Below, piece by piece: positions 5,799-42,364 of a stretch of DNA of 64,000 bases. The position numbers and the translations under genes were made by a program. The stretch is from Lobosporangium transversale (taxonomy: Eukaryota > Mortierellomycota > Mortierellomycetes > Mortierellales > Mortierellaceae): contig NW_019029027.1 of assembly GCF_002105155.1 (NCBI RefSeq), positions 264,297-328,296 of the forward strand, read 5' to 3'. The notes beneath the pieces were generated by a model. It had not been told where the DNA came from and did not search any database. It saw only the letters and a program-made list of their open reading frames with translations. Each line of letters begins with the position of its first letter. Within the stretch, counting starts at the first letter, position 1.

Positions 5799-6246
5799 CC
5801 TACCTTGTGCCAAACAAAAATAAGAATATTTCCATGGACAGCGGAGAAAAGAGAGCGATCAAGCGACAGGCGTCGACCGAGTAAGGAGAGGAGCCTAGAG
5901 GTAGCAAGAGAATTCACATTGAGCATATGTAGCTCACATAGTTTTATATAGTATAGACAATATCTGCGTGTCAGCAAACACGCTAGTCTAGTTCGGAGTG
6001 CAGGGCCAAGATTGTGCTGTACTCTCGGAGGATACATCTTGCAAAAGTGCATTTGTATGTTAAAAGTGTTGTTCAAGGAATGGAGAGTGATCAACGGCAT
6101 ATGGTAGTGTTCAGATGTTTATACAACTTCCTATGGAGCCCGAACAGTCATCATATTCAGATGAATTGCAAATGAAGTGAATTTCTAGCATATTGATAAA
6201 GAAGACCTGCGATAAAATTCTTTATACCTAATAGAATATAATCTAT
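5799..6246. other. Intergenic region between divergent frames
   Basis: A 107-codon minus-strand frame (5777-6100) crosses this region without recognisable motifs. It might contain a 5' exon of the GCR1_C-like gene, but no splice-phase proof was found. Otherwise I see nothing in it. Confidence 0.35.
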
Positions 6247-36237: not shown

Positions 36238-38200
36238 AGGATAACAATATCTCATTCCTCGCAACGCTTTCCTATTTATTTATTATAACTTCGTCCGTAA
36301 CAAGGGCAAATTTGCCATTATAAATGGGCTTAAAATCCAGCAATCCATGGGCATTGTCTTGAAATTTTATTTCGATGTCGAAATAAATGACCGAAAACTA
36401 AATTGTCATAGAGCTATCCTGGCTTCTTTGTTTGTGCAAATAAAAAACTCTTGAAGACTTTCGCATGACCCTAGCATCCGCTTGGGAGTCCATTGTATCG
36501 TTTATTTATTGACTAGTGTAATAGCAGTGATAATATTCGCTGTCGTAGTCTCGACTTGGAAGGAGGGCAATCTGAGTCGATTCATTCTACCGCACCATAG
36601 AGCTTGACTAACTTGATCTTTTCCTGTACAGCTCGGCAAGACTTGATTTGTCACATCGTTTGCTTGCTCGTCTTCTTGCGTTCCCTTGATGTATCTGGGT
36701 TGGTAAGCACTGCTAATAGAGATTGTTGGGCCTGCTGAAACCGGGAACCACAGCAACATATCATACCCAAGGTGATACAAATATCTCTGTTGGAGTGAGT
36801 GGTGAACTGTGTGTGGCTCAGATGTAGTGGACATAAACGGCGAAAGAATGCATCGAAAGGATGTGAGCGGTTATGAGAGCAAGGAAGAAGGGGTTGGTAT
36901 GCCTGTTCAAGTCCTTGGCAAGAGAGCATGAGTAGCAGTTGTGATCACAAGTTGATTTCGGTGAGTCCGCATAACAATAGTATAGTTTCTAGACCCTATC
37001 TTCCACGTACAGCATTGCATTATTGTTGTTTTCAGACCTAATCATGCGAGGTATTTCTCTTTCTGAGGGTTCCTTGTGTTAAACGGCCAGACAGAAAGCT
37101 TAGAAGAGATACAGACACAACGGTGAAAAAAATGTATGTGAGCAAACAGTTGCTGTGTTTATTTGTTGTCTGCACATGCCTTCTTTTATCGCGGGCTTTT
37201 TTTTTTATTGTTTCGCAAATCTTGTTTCCTTTTTTGTTCGTCAATCACTGTGTGCACGAATAAGCAGCTGAAGCATCTCTTTGGTTTCTGTACATGTATA
37301 AACACATTTTACATCGCGGCGTCGTTCAAAACACAAGCGTTTTCCATTGGTGCCTCCAGACAAACTTTATTTTGGTGGCCACTCCACAATCATCCCATGG
37401 TTATAACAATCCCTAGGAAAGGATCAAATGCGTCGGTACCAATCTCGCTTCTGTATTTCTAGATGCAAATGTTTTGGCGATTGGTATCAACTATCAAATT
37501 CACACATACACACACCAAACGACCGCCAAAAACCACCACTCTCGCTTCTGCTCTCCCTCCATCCACAAGGCGCTGCGCAATATCACCATTAACAAGGCAT
37601 TGTCCAGTAAGAAAGGGTGCTTAGATAGCTTTTACTCCAAGCAATAAGCGCATGCAACTACATCACTCCTATCTCCGCCATTGATGCCGGAATCTGAGAG
37701 TCAACGAATATCTCTGCTTTAATGCAATAGTACTGGGGCTGTTGGAGCAAAGAGCATCATATGAAGCCATTCTCTGATAAAAAAGACTTTTTTTTCTTTA
37801 GTTGTTACCTTTGACAAGGATATAATCACCGAGTCATATCTGTCAATGCATTTATTACCCCTGTTCAAAATTATAAATCTTCTTTTATTCATTAAATTCC
37901 TCACAAAGCACAAAGCAAGGGCCAGTGCAAACAAAAGAAACTGAAAAAAAAAAAAATTGTGTAAAAAGGATTGACATCGACACTGTATGCTGTATATGGA
38001 GATGATTTTTTCGAATGCTCACTTTGGTATCTCAATGCTATTGTTTCCAATCTGCCGTTCATGCGAGAGCTTGTATTTATTTGTCAATCTCTGCTATTGA
38101 CTTGAACAAAATCCCAATCCAAACAAAGGAACTGAATAAAGATTGATGTGGCCTGTGAAGCAAAGGATCGATATCAAAACTATATGAGACAATGATAAAA
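36238..38200. other. About 2 kb without a supported gene
   Basis: Contains a 22-bp near-perfect palindrome at 36366-36387 (10-bp arms, 2-bp centre) in the GPN1 3' flank. Overlapping minus-strand frames lie at 36502-36929, one of which (starting MSTTSEPHTVHHSLQQRY) looks mildly protein-like but is unrecognised. No RNA gene was seen. Confidence 0.4.
36366..36387. repeat. Palindrome with 10-bp arms
   Basis: TTTATTTCGA, then TG, then TCGAAATAAA. The position downstream of the GPN1 stop would allow a hairpin in its 3' flank, but function is unknown. Confidence 0.7.
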
Positions 38201-38322
38201 CCAGAGGGTCAAGCTTGTCGCTCTTTTTGGTTAGTCCTTTTTCAATTATAAGGATTTTGTTAAGTAAACCATTTATATTTGAAAGAGTCTAGCCAAAAAG
38301 AGCGACAAGCTTGACGCTCTGG
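38201..38322. mobile_element. MITE-like inverted-repeat element
   Basis: Arms of 33 bp (38201-38233 and 38290-38322) are reverse complements with two mismatches. They begin CCAGAG and contain GTCAAGCTTGTCGCTC. The centre is only 56 bp and AT-rich. The hexamer ATAAAA directly flanks both sides (38195-38200 and 38323-38328), as expected for a target-site duplication. There is no coding capacity. It sits 249 bp upstream of the XPG-Fanzor ATG, so it may lie in that promoter. The superfamily is not clear from the termini. Confidence 0.75.
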
Positions 38323-38570
38323 ATAAAACTCATCATCAATCCAGGATATAAAAAGGTATCATTGTCTTCCTCCTTCAATGTCCCATCCCTTTTACCACTG
38401 CCACTTGTTCCTGTATCTTTCCCTCAATATCCTTTATCTATTCACTTTGGATCTTTAAACCATAAAAAAGCTCATCCTTTTATACCTTTGTCGCTCTTTT
38501 TTTTCTTTTTCATTTCTTTTCATCACCACTATTTTTCCTTTTTTCTTTCTCTTTCGCTTAGATATTGACC

Positions 38571-40454
38571 ATGGGGCTGAAGTCCTTCTTCAAACTGGTT
38601 GCGGATCGCGGGGTTTTACCTTCGGAAACTGACGTGGGCACTTTCTTGGCGGCAAATCCTGACCATTCTGTTCATGTAGATCTCCTCGGTACTTTCTATT
38701 ACGACATCCTCCGCAGAGTCGTCCATGCAAAGATGAAAAACGAATCCATCATTGATGTAGGAAGGCCCCTGGCTCTCGTGATAAAGGATCTTTTCATAAC
38801 GGACAATTTGACTATACATATTGATAGGAAACCTTGTACTGAGAAAGAAAAAGCAAGGACAGAACGGCAAGGCATAAGAGAAAAAAATATGGATGCTTTG
38901 GAGAACGATATGAGCACCTTCGAGAGAAATTCTCGGAGTGGGGTATGGACTCGTCCTCAAGTCATGAGGCGCATCCAGAAGGGTCTTCGAGAAGTCCACA
39001 CCCTCAGCGTCCAGGACAAGGATCAGCTGGCAACAGGCCTTAGCTCTGTCTTCGATGTCTGTCTGTGTGCATATGAAGCGGACCCATGCATAGGGTGCCA
39101 TAATGAGGAGAATGATAGGATCGTGATATCCCAAGACTCTGATTTTTTTGCGTACGAACGAGTCTGCATCCTAGTGCGACCCCTTCTGCACCGCAGACGG
39201 AAGTTTGGGGTTTACGATGTAGACAACGTTATCCAAGCACTAAGACTGCCATCACACGCGCATCTGGTGTTATTCTGTGCCATCGCAGGCAATGACTACT
39301 CAAGGAACCTCGAGACCTTAGGCCCGGTTAATAATCTTCGATTAATTCGAAAGGTTGCGTGGAACGAGAACTACAATAAAATGCTTCGGGGCTACCTAAG
39401 GGAAGCTAGTAAGGTGTTGGGAAGGAACGCAGCCTCTGAAGAAGGCCGTTTCAGAGTAGCTCTCCGCATTTTTACTTCCGGCCATCAAACGTCGGCCCAA
39501 GCGTTACCATTGAACAATGAGTTCGATAGCTTCAAGCAGCGTCTACTCAATGGAAAGGATCTTCGCCATAGAATGGCTCAGCAAAGGCGAGCGCAGCGCC
39601 GCAGAACGTAAGAAAGCTCAAGCTATAGTTTTAGCCTTGAAACCATACGTCCCCAATACTAATCGTTAGTCCCTTTCTTGGATAATGTAGAGGCGCACCA
39701 TCATTCTATATAGCGGAAGGGTCACATAGGAACCAGTTTCGGCCCGTCTTTTCTGACAAGGCGAGCATATTGAATGGGCGCACAGTTGATATCAGTAACT
39801 GCCGTCAGCACGATAGGCCGGGCCTTAAGCATCCACCACGTCGGAAAAAGGCAAAAAGAGGCAACAGAAAAAACAAAAGCGGAAGCACAAAGGCAAGAAG
39901 CGCCACAGGGCTAAAAAAGAAGGTGCACCAATTAGGAACTTGAAGAATGCTACGAAGGTTGATCACAGCTACAGCAGTAAGCACCCTATCAAGGCCTTAA
40001 CAATTGGGTCCCTTAAGGCCTCCATGGTAAGGAAAGGCGGACTGGATGCAGATGAAAGGGATAGTATTGCAGGCCAGATCCGAGGGGTAGTTGTTGTCCT
40101 CAACCGACTACGCCGCTATGCATACTGGGCGATTGCCTTGGACATTGAGAGGATCATGCGGTTACCAGGGGCAGCAAGGTCGAGGACAAAAAACAAGGAA
40201 GGCGGTAGAAACGCCCCATTATCTCCTCGCTTATGAACATTTCAAGGCCACCACTGAACTTTCCCCAATAAAGGAAATAGACATCACATTGGGGGGCGTG
40301 CAAGGCTTTGATCCCAAAAAGATCTCATTTCCAAGAGCGTCAGAGCTACTAATGGGCCAAGTACAGACATCATTAAGGCAGCACTACAGGAACGCAATGG
40401 TATAGCTTGTGTAGGGTATTTTCATGTGTATTCTGCAATCAAATGCTCTTTATT

Positions 40455-40485
<31 letters not shown>

Positions 40486-41974
40486 AGCTTGATGTCGAGA
40501 AAACAAACGAAGATATGAGCGACATTGAGTTTTTTTTGCGGGAGAACAAAAAAGTGAAAAAATACTCAGACTTTCCTACGTCCCCCTGGTCACCCGGGTA
40601 TGTATATCTGTCTGAACACGCCCTAGTTGACACCCTCTGGGCGAACGAAGATACCAAGCAGCTGCTGGAGCGTATTCTGCCTCTCGACAATTCTTCCAAG
40701 ACTGCAATGTTTGAGTGTGTACAGGGAACAAAAGGGGTTTTGATTCAGGCTCTCTTTTGTGACATTGGAGGCGATCGCATGGTTCTTGGATATCGAGACA
40801 AAGTATCCCTGCAGTCACAGGACAAAGATATAACTCGGTTCAAACTCAAAGGAACGATTTCTACCAACGGTCTAGTTCTGAATCTACTTGCCTATGACAC
40901 AACCCAGACGAAGAGACAGCAGCAGTTTGACGTAGATGAAGAAGACGCCAGCCAAGAACTGGAGCTTTCTCAGGGATTCCTCAACACGACGTGTTCAAAG
41001 GCAGCCGGTGAAGGTCTGACAGATGAAGACTATGCAAACATAAACTGGAAGAGGAACTCCAAACTGCTTGAAAACGTTGAGCTCACATTCAACAAACCAG
41101 GGCGGTGCCCATCCGCAAACACCACAACTATCGTCGAATGCGATCCTGGTATTGTTAACGCCCTTACGTTTTCCTCCCTAGATCCTCACAACCCTAACTT
41201 GCGGCAAACGGTAAAGGTGAGAAGCAGGTTCTTGTACCTCCCCGTCCTCCGCTTCAATCACCTGTTGAACAAAAGGAAGCGTGAAAAAGGAATGATTGAG
41301 GTTGAGAGCGCCATCCCTGTGTTTGGAAGGGATACGTACAATGAGCACTTTCAATGGATGAACGAGGAGTCCCAGACACAGATAGGATCAAAGAATTTGG
41401 ATGTGCTTCAAGAGTTCTACGAGTCCAGATGGCACCTGAAAAAAAAATGGGACCTACGAAAGGCTCAACGAGCTACGTTCGACTACGCGGTACAGCGAGT
41501 GTTGGAGATGCTTGGGGAAAAAGGAGTGCTTGTCGTCGGTCTAGGGTCCTTTGAAAGTAGTAAAGGAGTTCCCAGCAAGCACACTGCTATAACGAGACAC
41601 CTTATCACACAGGTATGACTTTTTTTTTTAAAAAAAAAAAATAAGAAAAGCTGGAAAGCCATAGAACCCTTGCTAATAAACGACTGACCATTTGAAACGC
41701 TTAGATCAAAGCACGAGGACACTTCGCTGTAGGAGCGCACGGATTTTACACCAGCGCCCGCTGTCCCCGACCCCTCTGCGATAGCTTTTTAGAGACGGTG
41801 TACCCTCGCTCTAAATATTGCCGGACATGTAAGGTATTCTTCGACTGTGACGCAGTAGGGGCGGAAAACATCGCAAGAATCGGTCTTGCTCAAATTGAGA
41901 GGCAAGAGAGGCCTGCAAAGTACAAGCCCACGGAAGAGTCGCCTGCTCCGGCTGCAAAGCGCGCACGACGCTAG
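38571..41974 (+). CDS. XPG/FEN1-like nuclease joined to Fanzor (TnpB-like) RuvC nuclease
   Basis: Four exons (38571-39607, 39691-40399, 40488-41612, 41705-41974). The N-terminal domain (residues 1-270) is XPG/FEN1-like: MGLKSFFKLV, then acidic residues at D37, D85, E169, D171, D189, D191 and D242, in the order and close to the spacing of the FEN1 metal ligands. A basic Lys-rich linker and a helical region follow (RLRRYAYWAIALDIERIM). The C-terminal about 460 residues look like Fanzor: RuvC-I VECDPGIVNALTF, then VLVVGLGSFESSKG in place of a canonical RuvC-II, a zinc ribbon (CPRPLC and CRTC), then RuvC-III FDCDAVGAENIARI. A KRARR tail could be a nuclear signal. Splice phases connect all exons. 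Exon 2 needs two shifts: one base missing in the A-rich stretch about 39842-39940 and one extra near 40150-40185. The breaks could be sequence errors or real decay. RNA-guided DNA cleavage is known for some Fanzors; here it is inference. Confidence 0.75.
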
Positions 41975-42364
41975 ACACAAGTATTTGGGTGCCGGCACAC
42001 CCACAAAAAATTTGTAAGTTCTGTTTATTTTCGTCTCCTGTATCCTCTCTAATCTTTTGCCCCTGAATTTCTGGACTAACTTTAAAAACCATACAGATCA
42101 ACAGATAACTGAACCTGGACATTACGGTGCATAATTTCTTGTGCGACTGCTTTTATGACAAACAAACAAAGGCAACGCGATGCTCACCATCAAGCACTCA
42201 TTTTCTTTTCTTCATCGACACTCAACAGGCGATATTGCTATATCCTTATTCTTTCTTAATATAAATCGTCTAATATCAACATTTATTTTAATCGCCATTC
42301 AATATTACAACCCATCGAATACGAAGCAATTCCTTTTTTTATAGACAAGAACTCTCCTCACATC
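41975..42364. promoter_or_regulatory. 3' flank of the Fanzor-like gene and leader of the CAF-1 gene
   Basis: A GC-rich inverted repeat (palindrome GTGCCGGCAC at 41989-41998, wider stem GGGTG/CACCC at 41987-42002) lies 12 bp after the Fanzor stop, then AT-rich DNA. In Fanzor/TnpB loci the guide RNA is typically encoded at or just past the 3' end of the nuclease, so this is the place to look for it. The CAF-1 leader occupies the right end. Confidence 0.35.

Follow-up and report, generated by a model that had tools for sequence, protein, structure and literature searches.

Does a single gene of the fungus Lobosporangium transversale (Mortierellaceae) encode two different nucleases in one protein? 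This question arises at positions 38571..41974 (forward strand) of a 64-kb stretch of its genome, which is called the window here and to which all window positions refer. The initial annotation proposed that an XPG/FEN1-type nuclease and a Fanzor-type RuvC nuclease are joined there in one spliced gene. We found that this proposal holds for the gene family, as seen in a second family of copies in the same genome (family B) and in other fungal genera, but fails for the window copy itself. The fused XPG-Fanzor architecture is, in our judgement, very probably real as a predicted single protein. Meanwhile, the window locus is, judged by its related copies, a decayed member of a transposon family with dozens of copies in the genome, which is called family A below.

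A predicted single protein in several families and genera

The fusion is supported by an open frame in family B, by shared intron phases, by an alignment across the junction, by annotated fusion proteins and by the domain order in a third family (family C). The XPG exon of family B is about 31% identical to that of family A, and 15 family-B loci match without a stop in this exon (C58 from residue 26 only). Two family-B loci, L050 and L049, were read. L050 is open through four GT-AG exons and encodes 1209 amino acids; L049, by comparison, lacks some sequence towards the end of exon 2 and loses its frame there. The intron phases 2, 0 and 0 are common to families A and B, and the positions of intron 1 in the two families differ by no more than four columns of the alignment, which has gaps there. 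Furthermore, exons 1 and 2 of a sister copy of the window gene in family A (L048) were aligned with those of family B across the junction (32% identity, E = 6.9e-84). In family C (L091 and L092), the XPG and Fanzor parts stand in the same order; the XPG exons are 26-28% identical, and the copies are partly frame-broken. As a separate observation, L005 (C117:643640-643861) carries an XPG_I-positive open reading frame (ORF) of the MGIxGLW type that resembles family C.

In the whole genome, there were 122 matches to the XPG exon and 144 to the Fanzor exon, many of which cover only fragments. The lists for the XPG exon and the zinc ribbon are lower bounds, and only the best candidates were scored. 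To count pairs, we used 77 XPG places drawn from the 122 matches (the rest were fragments of the same place and were merged or dropped) together with all 69 zinc-ribbon matches. An XPG match was found upstream on the same strand within 5 kb at 38 of the 69 zinc-ribbon places and not at 31, and only three pairs stood in any other close arrangement.

The same two-domain order was found in other Mortierellaceae genomes, where the initial annotation had suggested looking for it. Annotated proteins with both halves occur in Benniella sp. (1160 amino acids), Podila verticillata (P0004, 1260 amino acids) and Mortierella alpina (P0003, 1404 amino acids). Three protein searches, each of which scored only about 8000 candidates, returned 3, 4 and 7 proteins, and every one came from a genus of Mortierellaceae, in which we place Mortierella and Entomortierella. 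Among the incomplete models, P0002 of Benniella sp. stops before the zinc ribbon and P0005 of the same fungus is shorter; P0009 of Entomortierella beljakovae covers part of a Fanzor half, and P0010, from another L. transversale record, has the start of the XPG part and pieces of the Fanzor part. In viral and prokaryotic contigs, the search for relatives (profile A2) gave 57 pattern matches each, none of which was confirmed.

In the window copy, exon 1 (38571..39607) is open and covers the XPG/FEN1/EXO1-type 5' nuclease domain. Exon 2 (39691..40399) covers a linker and the start of the Fanzor part, and it is broken. Exon 3 (40488..41612) runs from the Fanzor N-lobe to RuvC, with DPG (RuvC-I) at 41142-41150 and GLGSF at 41538-41552, and exon 4 (41705..41974) contains the zinc ribbon (TNB) and the RuvC-III Asp. 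All four lie on the forward strand. The three introns of the initial annotation, intron 1 (39608..39690, phase 2), intron 2 (40400..40487, phase 0) and intron 3 (41613..41704, phase 0), are all GT-AG and have the same boundaries in the aligned sister copies, except for the acceptor of L012, which was read as AA; the phase of intron 1 is that of family B.

It had also been claimed that the four exons fit together through their donor and acceptor phases. Joined in this way, they do amount to 3141 nucleotides, a multiple of three, but exon 2 contains four in-frame stops in the joined reading. Compared with L048, exon 2 has deletions of 1 and 104 nucleotides; therefore, the frame is lost between them and regained later, and the outer phases of the gene still fit because the net loss is a multiple of three. 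In addition, HGFYTS (41738-41755) in exon 4 replaces HEFYTS, which puts a Gly at the relocated catalytic Glu (41741-41743). This Glu is kept in all 20 other family-A loci that reach the codon (20/21 with the window). The RD of the zinc-finger motif reads CD in the window and, among the 19 other family-A loci extending to this codon, in 3. Thus, with the stops and deletions of exon 2 and the loss of the relocated Glu, the window copy is, on comparison with its sister copies, a relic of a real fused gene, and an intact gene in the window is ruled out on the same grounds.

Two other readings of the gene have to be weighed at this point. One is that the window copy itself yields a functional enzyme with both activities, for which the intact exon 1 and an exon total divisible by three can be cited. 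However, the in-frame stops and the two deletions contradict this, and even if an unpredicted splicing event removed the shifted stretch, the relocated RuvC Glu would still be gone, so that we regard a working window enzyme as extremely improbable. The other reading is that an XPG-like nuclease and a Fanzor are two adjacent genes in a transposon, and that their joining is an artefact of gene models. Some L. transversale models speak for two genes: P0001, P0006, P0007 and P0008 have their start within the gene, so that the XPG half is wholly or almost wholly missing, and P0006, P0007 and P0008 contain the Fanzor half only. Nevertheless, P0001, in which just the end of exon 1 remains, spans intron 1 in the predicted way; the start of exon 2 is a block conserved in families A and B with no preceding ATG; and the models of Benniella, Podila and M. 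alpina span both halves. Two separate genes are thus very unlikely, and the single fused protein is the reading we follow below.

The two nuclease halves

FEN1 has the active-site carboxylates D34, D86, E158, E160, D179, D181 and D233, and the numbering of D86, D181 and D233 also appears in titles of PDB entries. The acidic set that the initial annotation had listed for exon 1 (D37, D85, E169, D171, D189, D191 and D242) was recovered in full at the expected places of the open exon. These residues correspond to the seven XPG/FEN1 carboxylates, and the I-region was aligned to FEN1, Rad2 and EXO1. Among the seven rows compared, the exceptions are P0003, which has no EAD segment, L048, which has N at D191, and P0005, which has ESD for EAD. 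Furthermore, K92 and R99 are invariant in all seven rows and stand at +7 and +14 from D85, as in FEN1, whose catalytic Lys/Arg pair includes K93 (with R100).

Structure prediction found an XPG fold at the N-terminus. The N-terminal half therefore shares the predicted fold and the active-site residues with the FEN1/EXO1/XPG (Rad2) superfamily, whereas it is only 11-19% identical to the EXO1 and FEN1 rows, and it is transposon-borne and continuous with a Fanzor. Against the Pfam XPG_I cut-off of 24.9 bits, which is a limit of detection and no defining trait, the window scored 16.5, family B 13.9, Podila 13.0 and the family-C locus C13 25.9 bits.

For the C-terminal half, the Fanzor motifs described by the initial annotation in the last exons are present at their positions in the window. 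DPG at RuvC-I and a relocated catalytic Glu six residues before the zinc finger are Fanzor1 traits (PMC10711439). We found DPG in 19 family-A and two family-B loci that fitted the search pattern (L044 did not fit), as well as in P0002 and P0004; variants are EPG in M. alpina, DSG in P0005 and DLG in family C. The relocated Glu is also present in both family-B loci and in 5/5 aligned rows. The presence of GLGSF had been presented as a replacement of the RuvC-II motif; its position was right, but it is no peculiarity, being normal for Fanzors, in which the Glu is relocated (PMC10711439). In addition, the Fanzor1 motif of [TS][TS]xx, C4 zinc finger and RD (PMC3627910) occurs in family B, Podila, M. 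alpina and family C.

PF07282 matched above its cut-off in family B (3.1e-7), M. alpina (1.2e-7) and Podila (6e-8). A C-terminal profile (A7), which was partly shortened by hand, matched the TnpB-like L79 at 9e-5 and SpuFz1, the Fanzor1 of Spizellomyces punctatus, at 1.1e-3 (0.057 for the best stretch alone); its alignment shows G..IES.IPS and E..TS..CP in common with SpuFz1. The longer Fanzor-half profile A4 found no Fanzor in PDB, where the shorter A7 found SpuFz1. PADLOC gave only weak Cas12 zinc-ribbon matches. Compared with Fanzor1 as represented by SpuFz1, the fusion has the same DPG, the same relocated Glu before the zinc ribbon, the same TSxxC zinc ribbon and the same RuvC-III Asp, and both are transposon-borne; it differs in carrying a complete XPG-type nuclease at the N-terminus. 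The C-terminal half is thus predicted to be a Fanzor1-type RuvC nuclease that is likely RNA-guided.

The mobile element carrying the gene

The initial annotation did not recognise the locus as a multi-copy mobile element. The family-A element of the window spans 5.8 kb (36283..42107, forward strand), begins with (T)TATC... and ends with ...CAGATCAACAGATA. In many copies, similarity drops sharply at 36283 and 42107, and the ends of the element have at least 42 (left) and at least 40 (right) matches in the genome, the window included. The ends share only the 4-bp inverted TATC/GATA. No long terminal inverted repeat (TIR) was seen in family A, and visual inspection of the window copy and of 10 paired copies showed no target site duplication (TSD); a classical TIR DNA transposon was rejected on this basis. 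Helitrons end in 5'-TC and 3'-CTRR. A Helitron was also rejected, as the family-A ends TATC... and ...GATA do not match these termini.

No transposase gene was found in the element. In its 5' 2.3 kb, no third gene or transposase was found, as the small ORFs differ among the three copies listed, and five ORFs of this part gave no Pfam match at E <= 0.1. The non-coding right end (41975..42107, forward strand), the place at which, by analogy, one would look for a guide RNA scaffold, is conserved, with a mean consensus frequency of 0.96 in 18 copies. The right flanks show only a lean to purines at +1 (17/22).

The element sits between two host genes, a GTPase gene (PF03029, 2.3e-45), which we take to be of the GPN type, and a CAF-1 p150-like gene, for which only weak matches were obtained. 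Inside the element, a hairpin of about 120 bp at 38202-38321, which resembles a miniature inverted-repeat transposable element, has CAGAG ends and an 8-bp TSD (GATAAAAC) and is presumably hAT-like by these features. Its empty site was found in three of the four copies examined (L047, L048 and L059), and L054 gave no match.

Several observations concern other copies. Two family-A copies, C14:11700-24200 and C66:87100-100600, agree over the element and over a right flank of about 6.8 kb; the first 984 bases of this flank are 96% identical and three sampled stretches of 200 bases 97-100%. Their left flanks (about 600 bases) are unrelated, and the break is at the left end of the element. Either a rearrangement or a one-ended copying event could account for this pair. 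In family B, 74-bp inverted repeats flank the gene at L049:656-729 and 5934-6006; they may be subterminal, as similarity to L050 continues to L049:6082. Upstream of the same gene, on the other strand, L049:1039-1589 is a fragment of a family-A Fanzor exon (86% DNA identity), and protein matches to this exon also lie beside other family-B loci.

Possible mode of action and its alternatives

How might such a protein work? The sequences show the gene architecture and its conservation; nuclease activity, a guide RNA and a role in resection are inferred. An RNA from the right end would guide the Fanzor half to DNA matching the sequence beside the element, for example on an allele or sister chromatid that lacks the element, and this DNA would be cut. 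Being tied to the cutter, the 5' nuclease would act at once, clearing 5' flaps or resecting 5' ends, and the resulting 3' tails would favour homologous repair, by which the element could be copied back into the gap. Precedents exist: after TnpB has cut the emptied site, the element is restored by the homologous recombination that the cut sets off (PMC11870625), and the ends left by SpuFz1 have 5' overhangs (PMC10432273). Because no transposase was found in the element, its arrival at new sites stays outside this explanation. The XPG-Fanzor fusion together with resection-guided copying, taken as a joint reading, appears to us slightly favoured; the resection model by itself is a tentative proposal that may well be wrong.

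Several results weigh against this joint reading. On the side of the Fanzor half, PF07282 in window exon 4 reached only E = 0.00041 and 20.9 bits, compared with a cut-off of 26.3, and it was below the cut-off or absent in P0001, P0002 (which ends before it), P0005 and P0010; the matches to NCBIfam guided_TnpB (1.8e-5 to 5.6e-7) were far below the cut-off. The AlphaFold2 model of full-length Benniella P0002 had low confidence (mean predicted local distance difference test score, pLDDT, 49) and a Fanzor half too poor to be interpreted, and in a fold search with it XPG-type folds came first, with no Fanzor in the best 50 rows. On the side of the XPG half, the NCBIfam fen_arch match was far below the cut-off. 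M. alpina P0003 is without the EAD segment and has E instead of the RuvC-I Asp. As to the guide, no structure was apparent at the right end (RNA fold z-score 0.41, no Rfam match), and the 16 distinct left flanks showed no transposon-adjacent motif. Moreover, other Fanzors leave blunt or 3' ends, so that the 5' overhang is not general (PMC10432273). The state of the copies also counts here. Exon 2 is open in three (C66, C2 and C51) of nine distinct family-A loci cut out, a tenth locus (L008, C41) having yielded no exon 2; C66 loses the frame late in exon 3, and no fully intact copy was seen among the family-A loci read. The ratio of nonsynonymous to synonymous substitutions (dN/dS) of exon 1 is only moderately below 1 (mean pairwise 0.64 for 11 open family-A copies, 55 pairs). 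For exon 3 the mean is 0.37, from the 3 of 20 loci that could be cut out open. These ratios reflect mild constraint in copies picked as open; they fit selection on a source gene and are no proof of it.

Three further explanations concern the function of the fusion. The XPG-Fanzor protein may be a passenger or a decayed accessory, while the element is mobilised by an unseen transposase that is encoded elsewhere in the genome. The chance of this is about even: there is no transposase gene found in the element, derivatives with internal deletions are present (L065 and L067), and Fanzors ride in several transposon superfamilies, some without their own transposase gene (PMC3627910). However, both active sites are conserved across genera, which is contrary to mere decay, and a passenger is compatible with resection-guided copying, as it bears on mobility and not on the fused protein. 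The fusion may also be real with an XPG half that acts on RNA or R-loops, by trimming the guide or cutting the displaced strand, instead of on resection; we consider this rather unlikely. Less likely still, XPG-Fanzor could be the sole protein that the transposon needs, with an RNA-guided cut and 5' resection driving homology-directed or one-ended copying. If this were true, there would be a class of eukaryotic transposons that move without a transposase.

The fusion and its element have partial parallels in known systems. PpFz1 of Parasitella parasitica is likewise a Fanzor1 of an early-diverging fungus with an acquired extra domain; however, this domain (FRI) is a small cyclophilin-binding insertion in RuvC and not a second nuclease (PMC11423790). 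The Fanzor elements MCi-2 and MCi-5 of Mucor circinelloides are also without recognisable TIRs and of unknown transposon class, whereas they have (putative) TSDs and partly carry Crypton or Harbinger transposase genes, and no XPG domain is reported for them in the available parts of PMC3627910. A different parallel lies in the Academ DNA transposons, some members of which contain an XPG nuclease. Both are thus DNA transposons with an XPG-like nuclease, but family A is without a long TIR or TSD, and no Academ-type transposase gene was recognised in it, with no reference sequence compared.

The initial annotation knew of no description of the fused layout, and our literature search, outside which most subscription journals lay, likewise found no description of an XPG-Fanzor architecture. 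The same literature contained nothing on Fanzors in Mortierell- taxa, and a whole-word search found nothing on Academ and XPG together. Fanzor papers that mention flap endonucleases describe no such fusion in the parts consulted; the nearest wording was a clause in PMC11071296, 'candidate Fanzor flap endonuclease homologs', which refers to two virus contigs with unspecified contents. The parts are thus known, and the joined architecture appears to be new.

The natural role of Fanzors, the RNA-guided nucleases of eukaryotes, is still debated. Direct tests of the fusion are feasible, as family B offers near-identical copies in a saprotrophic fungus. If the proposed action is true, the fusion would be a ready-made enzyme for guided cutting together with preparation of the ends for homologous repair, a combination that genome editors now try to achieve artificially. 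Furthermore, a Fanzor joined to a resection nuclease across several fungal genera would implicate the processing of break ends and homologous copying in the role of Fanzors.
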